The position numbers and the translations under genes were made by a program. A stretch of DNA of 33,086 nt, taken from the NCBI GenBank assembly GCA_030625775.1, contig DAOUQC010000058.1:1-33086 (forward strand), read 5' to 3'. Shown here piece after piece: positions 14,239-17,886 of the stretch. The DNA is from Verrucomicrobiota bacterium. Its GTDB lineage: Bacteria > Verrucomicrobiota > Verrucomicrobiia > Verrucomicrobiales > DEV007. How positions within the stretch are numbered: the stretch's first letter is position 1; each line of letters starts with the position of its first letter. Under the pieces are notes generated by a model that worked only from the letters and a program-made list of their open reading frames with translations, did not search any database and had not been told where the DNA came from.

Positions 14239-15924
14239 TTATTTCATGTAATGTTTTTTGTCCACCGGATGCACCGCCAGATTGGCGAAAAAACCAATCA
14301 CCAACAAGGCTGCCATGGCATACATCGTCGTATTGTAGAGGCTTGAAGTCGGATCCAGTGTTCCTTGCGGAGCAATTTCCATCAGCTTGGAAACCGTTAC
14401 ACTTTTTGCCGCCATCAGCTGCTCCAGCTTGTCCACCGATGCCCCGAAGGTTTGCTGGAATTGTTCGGGATCAACTTTTGCAGACAAATCACGAACAGCT
14501 TTGTCAACTGAGCTTTGACGCAAGGAGGTGATCACCAAGGGGCCGAGAACCCCTGCCGTGCTCCACGCGGTCAGCAGACGTCCATGAATTCCACCGACAA
14601 ACTTGGTTCCAAATATGTCTGCCAGATAAGCAGGAATCGTTGCGAAGCCACCTCCATACATAGTGAAAATCAGCATCGTCGCCGCATAAAAAATCACTAA
14701 CCAGATCGTCGCCGGCGAAGCGCTGACCGCACTGGCCGCGAAGGGAATCGAAAGGTAAAGCAGCGTTCCGATCACAAAAAAACAGTGATAGGTATTTTTC
14801 CGCCCAATGTAATCCGACATGCTCGCCCAGAAAAAACGCCCCCCCATATTGAATACGCTGATCATCAATACATAGGTCGCTGCGAAAGACCCTTCTGCAT
14901 CTACAAACGCCGGCAGTGCAGATCCGAAAATTTCACCTATCATTGTTTTGGCGACCCCGATCACGCCAATACCTGCCGTAACGTTAAAACACAGCACGAT
15001 CCACAGAAGATAGAATTGGCGTGTTTTTAACGCTTCATTAATCTCAACGTTATGCTGGGTGATCATCTTCCTCGAAGAATCTCCCTCTACCGGAGGTGTC
15101 CATCCTTCCGGCTTCCAACCCTCTGCCGGCACACGATACGAAAAAGATGCAACAATCATCACCACGAAATAAACCAATCCAAGGGTAATGAAGGTGCTCG
15201 CCGCACCCGTATTACCGGTTCCCACTACGTAAACACCTTCCAGCAGGCCACCACTAACATCCGCTGCAGCAGCCACTACCACCTCTACTTTTTTTCCTGC
15301 CACCTCGGCAAAACGCACTCCTCCTTCGGTAACCAAATTCACAGCGTCCACCGCACCAAGGTATTCAGGGGTCTCCGAAAAAGTTTTCAACAACCACCTT
15401 TTGATCGGCGCCGCAATCATCGCACCACCACCAAAACCCATGATTGCCATTCCTGTCGCCATGCCCCGGTGATCCGGAAACCAGCGAATCAAGGTGCTGA
15501 CCGGCGACACATAACCCAAACCCAGGCCACAGCCGCCGAAAAAACCATAACCCAGATAGATCAGCCAAAGCTGATGTGTGGAAATGCCCACGCTACCAAT
15601 TAAAAACCCACCCCCCCACAAGCAGGCCGCTGTCACTCCCACACAACGGGGCCCGACTCGTTCCAACCATTTCCCCGCAATCGCCGCCGCCAGACCAAGA
15701 AAAACAATCGCTGTGGAAAAAATCCATACCACCTGGCTCAAGGCCCAGTCCCCTGCCGCAGGAACAATAACTCCCAACTCCCGCATCAAAGCCGGATTAA
15801 AAATACTCCACGCATAGACCGAACCAATGCACAGGTGAATGGCGATCGAAGCCGGTGGCACCAGCCAGCGATTGTAACCCGGTGGTGCGATGATCGACTC
15901 TTTAAGGAGGGTTTTTGGGATCAT
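14239..15924 (-). CDS. MFS transporter, oxalate/formate antiporter (OFA) family
   Basis: 561 residues from the ATG at 15924. An in-frame TTG at 15954 is rejected because the added residues come from a repeat copy (15934-15958). About 12 membrane helices. OFA marks include NRWLVPPASIAIHLCIGSVYAWSIF in TM1, YGFFGGCGLGLGYVSP in TM4, and RWFPDHRGMATGMAIMGFGGGA after it. Two unusual hydrophilic insertions stand out: about 60 residues after TM6 (AVDAVNLVTEGG on, Val-rich) and about 65 before the last helix (LSAKVDPEQFQQTFGAS on). Related members carry organic anions such as oxalate, formate, lactate or pyruvate; the substrate here is unknown. It lies 85 bp upstream of the GSDH gene on the same strand and may lead the same transcript. 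Confidence 0.9.
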   Translation of the reverse strand: MIPKTLLKESIIAPPGYNRWLVPPASIAIHLCIGSVYAWSIFNPALMRELGVIVPAAGDWALSQVVWIFSTAIVFLGLAAAIAGKWLERVGPRCVGVTAACLWGGGFLIGSVGISTHQLWLIYLGYGFFGGCGLGLGYVSPVSTLIRWFPDHRGMATGMAIMGFGGGAMIAAPIKRWLLKTFSETPEYLGAVDAVNLVTEGGVRFAEVAGKKVEVVVAAAADVSGGLLEGVYVVGTGNTGAASTFITLGLVYFVVMIVASFSYRVPAEGWKPEGWTPPVEGDSSRKMITQHNVEINEALKTRQFYLLWIVLCFNVTAGIGVIGVAKTMIGEIFGSALPAFVDAEGSFAATYVLMISVFNMGGRFFWASMSDYIGRKNTYHCFFVIGTLLYLSIPFAASAVSASPATIWLVIFYAATMLIFTMYGGGFATIPAYLADIFGTKFVGGIHGRLLTAWSTAGVLGPLVITSLRQSSVDKAVRDLSAKVDPEQFQQTFGASVDKLEQLMAAKSVTVSKLMEIAPQGTLDPTSSLYNTTMYAMAALLVIGFFANLAVHPVDKKHYMK

Positions 15925-15933
15925 GGGGGAAGG

Positions 15934-15958
15934 GGAATAATTAATATTGAACAAGGAA
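15934..15958 (+). repeat. Left inverted repeat flanking the four-helix-bundle gene
   Basis: 25 bases, ending in TTGAACAAGGAA. It matches the reverse complement of 16464-16488 at all but three positions. It is followed by AATTCAGAATGTCGGAGG, an extension not present at the right end. Confidence 0.75.
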
Positions 15959-15995
15959 TTCAGAATGTCGGAGGAATGAAAAGAAAAAATGGAAG

Positions 15996-16376
15996 TTATT
16001 GGCTCAATAGATTTTTCTTGGCAGTTGTTATGCTTACCACAAAAATGGAAATCAGTTCGTTGGTTTCCTCGATAATGGAATTGAGTTTTTTAGGCAATTC
16101 AACCAGCGGCTTACTTTGAATAATCAACAACCATACCAACGTTTCCCTCAATTCTTTTAAGGAGATTTTCATTTTATGAATAAAATCCTTCCGAGATTCA
16201 GCTCCCTGAGCTTCTCCATAATTCGCTGCAGGTGAAGTGCCTGATCGGACCAGTTGTCCCGCAACATGCTTTCCCGCCAGTGTATCAGGCAACACTTCAA
16301 CCACATTCAAAACTCTAACTGCGTATTCAACCAGTCGTTCCTGCAAATCAAAATTTCTCGCCTGTTCACCATTCAT
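15996..16376 (-). CDS. Four-helix-bundle protein (23S rRNA intervening-sequence / bAvd-like family)
   Basis: 126 residues from the ATG at 16376. A TTG one codon earlier is possible, but GGGGGAG placed 6 bp before the ATG decides the start. The protein is all-helical with the family's core pattern: DLQERLVEYAVRVLNVVEVLP, GKHVAGQLVRSGTSPAANYGEAQGAESRKDFIHKMKISLKELRETLVWLLI, and a last helix. The block LVRSGTSPAANYGEA is the hallmark of this family. Relatives are encoded inside 23S rRNA intervening sequences in some bacteria, or as accessory proteins of diversity-generating retroelements, and form a basic pentameric barrel that may bind nucleic acid. Here there is neither rRNA nor reverse transcriptase. 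It stands alone between inverted repeats, which suggests it travels as part of a small dispersed unit. Confidence 0.88.
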   Translation of the reverse strand: MNGEQARNFDLQERLVEYAVRVLNVVEVLPDTLAGKHVAGQLVRSGTSPAANYGEAQGAESRKDFIHKMKISLKELRETLVWLLIIQSKPLVELPKKLNSIIEETNELISIFVVSITTAKKNLLSQ

Positions 16377-16434
16377 CAATTACTCCCCCTCTGCACTTCC
16401 TCCTTCTTCATTGCCTTCAAGTAGTTTTTTCCGG

Positions 16435-17886
16435 TTATCTCGCCCCGCGGCTGCGGGACTCGGTTCCTTGTTCAACATTCAATATTCCCTTCTTACCCTT
16501 GCCTTTGTGGAGGGCTGCAGTCAGTTCTTTTACTGTAACGGCCTGCTCTGTTTGTTCCGACACGTTTACATTTTCTCCCGGATCCTTGCTGTGATCGTAA
16601 AGCATGCGTGAATTGAATTTGCCGCCTTTACGGGTGTACTCACTGAAACGAAATTGATCGGTTCGAATGGTATCGCCATTCACAAAACGTCCGATGGCGG
16701 CAGGCTTCCACGGTAAATCCGGATCTTTCAGCAAAGGTACAAAACTCTTGCCCTGAAGGTGTGATGGCAAAGGCAAACCAGCGAGTTCGCTGAGCGATGG
16801 GTATATATCGATGAACTCGGTGAGAGCCTTCGTTCGCTGCCCCCCCTTCGTCACTCCCGGCGCACGCACGATCAGCGGCACCTGCATCGATGTTTCGAAG
16901 CAGCTGTGTTTGCACCACATAGTGTGCTCCGCAAGATTCCAGCCGTGATCCCCCCAGAGAATGACAATCGTATCCTCTGCCAGCCCCAGCTTTTCCAACT
17001 CATCCAGCACCTTGCCCACCTGGGCATCGGTGAAACTGACGCAGGCGTAATAACCATGAATCATCTTGCGCGCCATCTCATCCGAAACCGGCCCCTTGGC
17101 AGGCACCCCCGCATAAGCGCGCAATTCACCCGATGTATGAACCGCTTCTTTGGGCGCATTTTTTGGAGGGTAGTAATTCGGCGGCAATTGAATGCTGTCA
17201 TAATCATAGAGATCCCAGTATTTTTTTGGAGCTACAAAAGGTAAATGAGGTTTGAGAAAACCCACTGCCAGGAAAAACGGCTCTTCTTTGTCTTTCAGAC
17301 GTCGCAAGTCTTCGATGGCTTTTGCCGCAATCTGTCCATCAGGATAATCCATATCCGGTGCATCCGCCGACTCATAGGGAGGGCCCCGTCTCCTCCGGCC
17401 TTTCATTTTGCCCCGCTCTTTGTGAATCTTCTGATTTTCCTCAAGCCGGTAACCGATCCCATTTCCTGTCGGTCGCCACACTTCCTCCGACCAACCCCGC
17501 GCATTATCCTCGCGATGATGGAAAATTTTACCGTTCGATACCGTGTGATAACCATTGTTTTTAAAATGGGTATTCAGGGTCATGATGCCCGGCGTCTCCT
17601 TTTGTGCAGACGCGAGATACGAAACAAAACGCCCACGCGACGGACGGATCCCCGTCATCAAACTGGCGCGCGATGCACCACATGTCGGCACCATGCAATA
17701 AGCACGCTCAAAAAGAAATCCGGTCTTCGCCAATTTATCAATATTAGGCGATTTGATGTGCGTCTTACCGTAACAAGCCAGCTCCGGCCGCAGGTCATCC
17801 ACTGCAATGAACAACACATTAGGCTTGGCCCAGGCAACGACAGCACTTTGCGCAACTAAAATGATAATGGAAATCGAACGGAACAT
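16435..17886 (-). CDS. Type I sulfatase, iduronate-2-sulfatase-like
   Basis: 483 residues. Signal peptide MFRSISIIILVAQSAVVAWA, then NVLFIAVDDLRPELACYG, the N-terminal metal block typical of iduronate-2-sulfatase-like members. The active-site motif is CGASR (69-73), which fits the C-x-P/A-x-R rule with Ala at the third place. Other marks are YPDGQIAAKAIEDL, FFLAVGFLKPHLPFVAPKKYWDLYD, VILWGDHGWNLAEH, and FIDIYPSLSELAGLP. It is a probable periplasmic sulfate-ester hydrolase acting on sulfated glycans. The C-terminal tail after KGKGKK is encoded by the right inverted repeat, so the original end was probably replaced or lengthened. It starts 76 bp after the stop of the neighbouring sulfatase on the same strand, likely cotranscribed. 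Confidence 0.93.
   Translation of the reverse strand: MFRSISIIILVAQSAVVAWAKPNVLFIAVDDLRPELACYGKTHIKSPNIDKLAKTGFLFERAYCMVPTCGASRASLMTGIRPSRGRFVSYLASAQKETPGIMTLNTHFKNNGYHTVSNGKIFHHREDNARGWSEEVWRPTGNGIGYRLEENQKIHKERGKMKGRRRRGPPYESADAPDMDYPDGQIAAKAIEDLRRLKDKEEPFFLAVGFLKPHLPFVAPKKYWDLYDYDSIQLPPNYYPPKNAPKEAVHTSGELRAYAGVPAKGPVSDEMARKMIHGYYACVSFTDAQVGKVLDELEKLGLAEDTIVILWGDHGWNLAEHTMWCKHSCFETSMQVPLIVRAPGVTKGGQRTKALTEFIDIYPSLSELAGLPLPSHLQGKSFVPLLKDPDLPWKPAAIGRFVNGDTIRTDQFRFSEYTRKGGKFNSRMLYDHSKDPGENVNVSEQTEQAVTVKELTAALHKGKGKKGILNVEQGTESRSRGAR
16464..16488 (-). repeat. Right inverted repeat, inside the sulfatase 3' end
   Basis: This copy lies within the reading frame of the sulfatase ending at 16435. 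The last residues of that protein from about 467 on (GILNVEQGTESRSRGAR) are encoded by this repeat and the sequence beyond it. Confidence 0.75.

Follow-up and report, generated by a model that had tools for sequence, protein, structure and literature searches.

In several phyla, few unexplained small genes are as common as those for S23, or 'four helix bundle', proteins. One such gene lies between a sulfatase gene and an MFS transporter gene in the window (the whole stretch of DNA analysed here, 33,086 nucleotides of contig DAOUQC010000058.1 from a Verrucomicrobiota bacterium), and it is framed by inverted repeats. What kind of unit is this, and how could it have come to lie there? We consider it probable that it is a compact mobile element, in which an S23 gene stands between inverted arrays of about five heptads, and that it corresponds, as a free-standing unit, to the S23-coding intervening sequences (IVSs) found in 23S rRNA.

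Anatomy of the window element and its protein

The arms of the element (Table 1) are 26 nt each, match at 23 of 26 positions (88% complementary) and are separated by 505 nt. Local alignment of the 300-bp flanks gave a score of 39, which none of 5,000 dinucleotide shuffles equalled (maximum 36, mean 19), ruling out a chance inverted repeat, and repeat search found no further long inverted pair in the 1.5 kb around the element. The inverted ends reported in the preliminary description (25 bp, matching at 22) are thus real, but they are not simple repeats: each arm is a degenerate array of heptamers (GAATATT GAATGTT GAACAAG GAA..). As had also been claimed, exactly one gene lies between the ends, a single S23 (TIGR02436) gene, with its likely start at the ATG preceded by AGGGGGAG. 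The hairpin that had been noted in the leader is present as well, but it belongs to a separate dispersed repeat with six more copies elsewhere in the source genome; in other phyla this repeat is no part of the element. Its other sites (GAGTCCCGCAGCCGCGGGACGAGACAGCCGGAG..CGAAGGCAAT, L002-L007, corresponding to window 16396-16468) have heptad-like edges and carry no S23 gene. The repeat may be non-coding cargo of the ends that bound the S23 element.

Table 1. Features of the element and its neighbours in the window. Order along the minus strand of the element: 5' heptad arm, leader repeat, S23/four-helix-bundle gene, 3' heptad arm.
Feature	Position	Strand	Basis or remark
Whole element, ~557 bp	15933..16489	minus	inverted arms; missing from the corresponding junction in G001, with the ancestral tail of the junction kept in G002
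5' arm, GGGAATATTGAATGTTGAACAAGGAA on the minus strand, degenerate period-7 array	16464..16489	minus	repeat search, shuffle test
Leader repeat with GC-rich hairpin (GAGTCCCGCAGCCGCGGG..)	~16396..16468	minus	dispersed repeat of the source genome
Ribosome-binding site AGGGGGAG	16384..16391	minus	sequence
S23/IVP four-helix-bundle gene, 126 aa from ATG	15996..16376	minus	profiles, AlphaFold, Foldseek
3' arm, inverted copy of the 5' arm	15933..15958	minus	repeat search
Host sulfatase gene	16435..17886	minus	Pfam PF00884; comparison with G001
Host MFS transporter gene, starting directly after the element, downstream	14239..15924	minus	Pfam PF07690; orthologues in G001 and G002

The element is not cleanly intergenic, because the sulfatase ORF extends at its 3' end into the 5' arm. 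The native stop codon of the sulfatase is lost, and the C-terminal tail of the protein, ILNVEQGTESRSRGAR (window 16435-16480), is coded by the 5' arm and the leader; the sulfatase of the genus mate G001 ends shortly before the equivalent point. In an RNA fold of the element the paired arms form the terminal closing stem. No minus-strand promoter-like site was found in the window copy. Rfam gave no match around the element apart from one chance hit, outside it and below the gathering score, and a known structured RNA or group II intron was therefore rejected.

The window protein scores 79 bits against TIGR02436 (cut-off 24) and 50.7 bits against PF05635 (cut-off 33.8). Its AlphaFold model, built with 44 relatives in the alignment, has four confident helices (mean pLDDT 91.7). 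The top Foldseek matches of the model are 2RLD and 2GSC, crystal entries with five chains in each, followed by Avd of the diversity-generating retroelement (DGR) of a Bordetella phage (4DWL; probability 0.96, TM 0.67, 13% identity). Avd is a pentamer and binds nucleic acid. The S23 protein of Xanthomonas is likewise described as a homopentameric toroid (PMC4990558, citing Lin 2006). These pentameric solved relatives suggest that one S23 subunit may correspond to one heptad. The gene had no PADLOC defence match and no PHROG phage-family match, and both identities were rejected on these grounds. Although the ORF is intact in most S23 copies, several have premature stops, as would be expected of a selfish element, though the element may serve a function in some hosts.

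Heptad arms and genomic setting of S23 genes

The S23 unit is not limited to the source genome. We read the DNA around the S23 gene in 80 relatives from the GTDB species collection and in others from related genomes, mostly metagenome-assembled sequences. Ends of the type GAATATC GAATATC GAACAAG GAAT.TC GAA flank homologues in Verrucomicrobia, Planctomycetes, Cloacimonadota, Bacteroidota and more, and the heptad-arm pattern as such spans these four groups and Cyanobacteria. The arms are inverted tandem heptamers, typically of about five units. The best flank-to-flank inverted repeat exceeded every distal control in 72 of 98 loci. Identity at lag 7 was 0.657 beside S23 genes against 0.429 at distal positions and, over lags 2-24, only lags 7, 14 and 21 were raised beside the genes. 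Of near flanks, 47% contained period-7 runs over threshold, compared with 1.7% of distal flanks; the commonest length was five heptads. Both arms were periodic in 80 of 175 loci; the remainder, about half, we read as decay.

The two arms of one element agree even when they are unlike those of other elements (in L061, for example, left and right arm alike carry GAACAAGGATTAACGATTTTAGATTTTAGAA). Across the 80 loci that were periodic on both sides, the consensus heptamer of the left arm differed from that of the reverse-complemented right arm by a mean Hamming distance of 1.21 out of 7. The distance was 3.16 for permuted arm partners, with none of 2,000 permutations as low as the real value, and 3.08 for left and right heptamers compared in direct orientation; three loci were counted twice in the permutation test, which left the result unchanged. 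When whole arms were swapped between loci, no swap did better than the true partner in just 19 of 98, a low figure that reflects the GAATATC-type heptamers shared by many elements. Permutation of consensus heptamers over all lineages is the cleaner test.

Arm sequence varies from element to element with protein lineage. The other two S23 genes of the source genome have the arms CTCCTAACTCCTAACTTCTAAC and CTGTAGGTGTTTAGGCTATAGG, unlike those of the window element; with three kinds of arm in this one genome, the heptamer evidently goes with the element, not with the genome. Some elements point to concerted change of their arms. At a Nostoc methyltransferase site, two copies (L137 and L172) have arms of 33 nt on both sides and a third (L173) has 26 nt on both sides, implying one heptad fewer in each arm of the latter, and in L136 both arms contain one and the same inserted repeat, GCGTTAGCGGAGCGGGACGTTAGTCCATTGCG. 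Across loci, left and right arm lengths were uncorrelated (rho 0.16), so that concerted change is either limited to some elements or hidden by decay. Wobble pairs showed no significant asymmetry between the arms (286 versus 254, p = 0.18) and so do not speak for selection on pairing of the arms in sense-strand RNA.

The elements also have a preferred orientation. Neighbours could be identified for 137 copies; of these, 100 run in the same direction as both neighbours and 11 oppose both (binomial p = 4e-19), a departure from the equal numbers expected of random insertion into operons. This suggests that the insert needs the host transcript, or is tolerated only within it. None of the fetched relatives was located in rRNA, as judged by conserved 23S motifs. 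Some S23 genes lie in helicase-methylase defence loci (L129, L130, L135 and L138), including the DISARM drmD-pglX locus of Planktothrix; these copies either mark preferred insertion targets or are a recruited component. On Nostoc plasmids, S23 genes adjoin xisH/xisI (L132 and L278). The highest number of TIGR02436 matches seen, 26, was in a 2.8-Mb Cloacimonadota genome (G109). At a distance of about 300 bp from one S23 gene (L051), on the opposite strand (G002:C181:2544-2720), there is a short stretch resembling RVT_1, which may be a chance match or a dead retroelement.

Occupied and empty homologous sites

Comparison of homologous sites showed that, in the aligned sequences, the S23 gene and its arms are present or absent as a unit. 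At the window site, G001 has the sulfatase-MFS junction without the element (flanks 83% and 86% identical at the nucleotide level), and G002 has kept the same junction tail before the MFS gene, its sulfatase being gone. The tail common to G001 and G002 includes the sulfatase stop (AAGAAAAAGCTGGAGTGA), whereas the window ORF runs on into the arm, which marks the window state as the derived one. The empty junction of G001 holds a different heptad-like run, so that some of the ~70 bp counted as replaced in the window may reflect subsequent change.

Besides the window site, five more sites carry the element in one replicon and lack it in others. In three Nostoc plasmids a 466-bp unit (L137:1146-1611) interrupts the gene for a DNA cytosine methyltransferase and replaces 328 bp that are intact in L168, L169 and L174; the same unit, 87.8% identical, is found at an unrelated Nostoc locus in L136. 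A cas2-cas1 junction is occupied on plasmids of Nostoc TCL26-01 and Anabaena cylindrica PCC 7122 (L131 and L133), where the element is oriented opposite to both genes and has replaced ~60 bp, including the end of cas1; on two other Nostoc plasmids (L170 and L171) the junction is empty and the pair intact. Within a single strain, Nostoc C052, plasmid pC052_A (L279) is occupied and pC052_D (L288) empty, with a right flank 99.7% identical, arms that form a perfect 35-nt inverted repeat of five heptads, and 188 bp replaced. In Aulosira, ~25 bp are replaced in the occupied L277 relative to the empty L290 and L291. In Rhodohalobacter, ~560 bp are inserted at a stop codon in L248, while L283 and L284 are empty and a genus mate has a 4-bp gap between the same genes.

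Across these insertions between 0 and 330 bp of target are replaced, and no target-site duplication was seen at the compared sites. Among this handful of sites, the target near the junction holds the heptamer of the element, or a near copy of it, at the Nostoc methyltransferase (CAATTCG) and in Rhodohalobacter (CGATAA/CGGTAG). Where closely related genomes have an S23 gene at the same site (L060/L099 and L104/L111), vertical inheritance is indicated. Two 98%-identical segments of 1.96 kb on one chromosome (L217 and L218) were considered as a recent transposition and rejected: one copy is flanked by runs of N, and we treat the pair as a probable scaffolding artefact.

The preliminary description had read the unit as a non-autonomous mobile element or selfish module, and had named recurrence of the ends at other loci and empty sites in sister strains as the way to check this. 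The ends do recur with homologous genes at unrelated loci (three in G002/JAJRVS, dozens in other phyla), and empty sites exist in sister genomes, the window site included. The mobile-element reading is therefore supported, movement being deduced from comparison. The unit may not be strictly 'non-autonomous', since the S23 protein could itself be the mobility factor.

Known relatives and possible routes of movement

The closest known system is the IVS of the 23S rRNA gene of Coxiella burnetii, which is 428 nt long, has an S23 ORF and 28-bp inverted termini, carries before the start codon tandem GACAGAT heptamers whose number varies between strains, and is cut out by RNase III (PMC4990558). It resembles the elements described here in size (~420-560 bp here), in its S23 ORF, in its inverted, stem-forming termini and in the heptamers beside the ORF. 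In contrast to it, the S23 elements lie in protein-coding neighbourhoods (in the window, a sulfatase and an MFS transporter, with no rRNA), have heptad arrays on both sides, and occur with many copies and heptamer types per genome, most copies with an intact ORF. The window unit is thus not an rRNA IVS by location, but it has IVS anatomy. IVSs have been suggested to be remnants of transposition or of mobile elements (as recorded in PMC4990558). The window element is of a kind already described in part, as an IVS of the same anatomy has been published; of S23 genes bounded by heptad arrays outside rRNA we found no earlier description in the literature searched, which took in little of the subscription journals. 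We know of no mode of movement demonstrated for rRNA IVSs since 1990.

Filamentous cyanobacteria have short tandemly repeated sequences (STRRs) of 7 bp that can form hairpins and whose function is not known (PMC2670836). The period of seven led us to expect cyanobacterial S23 genes between STRR-type heptanucleotide arrays, a prediction that held on plasmids. The arms there are GATTTAC in Planktothrix, AATTCGT in Dolichospermum and Nostoc C052, AAAAAGT in Nostoc TCL26-01 and Anabaena cylindrica, and ACTTGCG and CAATTCG in Nostoc ATCC 53789. The likeness, which is one of array type, lies in tandem 7-bp, hairpin-capable arrays between genes; unlike free STRRs, which have no gene, the repeats of S23 elements bound a gene as inverted arms. 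From the plasmid loci we propose that S23 elements are a likely source of cyanobacterial STRR heptamers. REP/REPIN sequences with their RAYT genes also pair short inverted repeats, scattered through intergenic regions, with a linked single-gene family. They differ in that a REP is a hairpin plus a tetranucleotide and has no period-7 array, that the RAYT protein is a Y1 nuclease and not a four-helix bundle, and that the S23 gene travels with its ends.

How such a unit could move can be outlined as follows. The window copy, having no recognisable promoter of its own, would ride on the host transcript. There its arms would fold as a terminal stem, which could shield the element or, like that of rRNA IVSs, serve as a substrate for cutting by RNase III. 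The S23 protein ring would bind its own heptad array with one heptad per subunit, a proposal based on the match between the five-chain ring and the five-heptad mode. The protein-arm complex might then anneal to heptad-like microhomology in the target DNA, with host replication or repair completing the insertion, a step in which our confidence is low and lower than in the others. Annealing of this kind would explain target deletion without duplication, and also the matching arms. A general class of elements free of transposase and reverse transcriptase (RT), whose pentameric ring reads five 7-nt repeats and pairs with a heptad-like target for host replication or repair to install, with IVSs and STRRs as specialised or decayed forms, is a tentative idea that we find possible but rather doubtful. 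If there is one class with one anatomy, it would tie together S23 genes, rRNA IVSs and cyanobacterial STRRs; if movement without a transposase holds, it would be a new mechanism of mobile DNA and possibly a homology-guided insertion module.

No recombinase, RT or transposase is coded in the S23 element, so an enzyme of the host might act in trans. Movement by a host RT of group II intron or DGR type, with S23 as an Avd-like partner and the arrays arising by slippage of primed cDNA, would fit the fold shared with Avd, which is essential in DGRs (PMC12875486), the sense-orientation bias of S23 copies, and target deletions that resemble target-primed insertion. We nevertheless regard it as unlikely. 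The window locus, unlike a DGR, has no RT, template or variable repeat; the source genome, with its three S23 genes, has no RVT_1 match in an assembly that is 96% complete; G009 has six S23 matches and no RT; and no association was found across 69 near-complete genomes (RT in 20 of 38 versus 14 of 31, p = 0.63), absence being scored per assembly. That the unit is a REP- or MITE-like DNA element whose arms are recognised by a host transposase, Y1 (RAYT) or another, with the S23 gene as a passenger, seems to us quite improbable. Seven Y1_Tnp matches in the source genome, and the dispersal of solo arms and of the hairpin repeat family, would suit it, but the leader hairpin repeat was not found beside any of five Y1 loci that we inspected, a single transposase would leave unexplained the arms that vary with protein lineage and are of three kinds in the source genome, and no target duplication was seen. 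With no RT association found and no link between Y1 transposases and the arms apparent, the S23 protein is the remaining candidate for mobility.

Two further accounts dispense with present movement, and we give them very little weight. An old IVS-type insertion might have been lost from G001 and G002 instead of gained in the window lineage. The genus is represented by only three genomes, as metagenome-assembled contigs, which leaves this some room, but the junction tail with its sulfatase stop would have to be restored twice. Least probable of all is an ordinary resident accessory gene, a regulator or defence component, whose flanks happen to gather repetitive intergenic sequence. It would accord with the several copies in DISARM and helicase-methylase loci and with sites conserved between related species (L053/L055 and L061/L067). 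Occupied and empty homologous sites, inverted and element-specific arms, scattered neighbours, premature stops and the lack of a PADLOC match all speak against it, and it is largely refuted by the same unit standing at two unrelated loci, L136 and L137.
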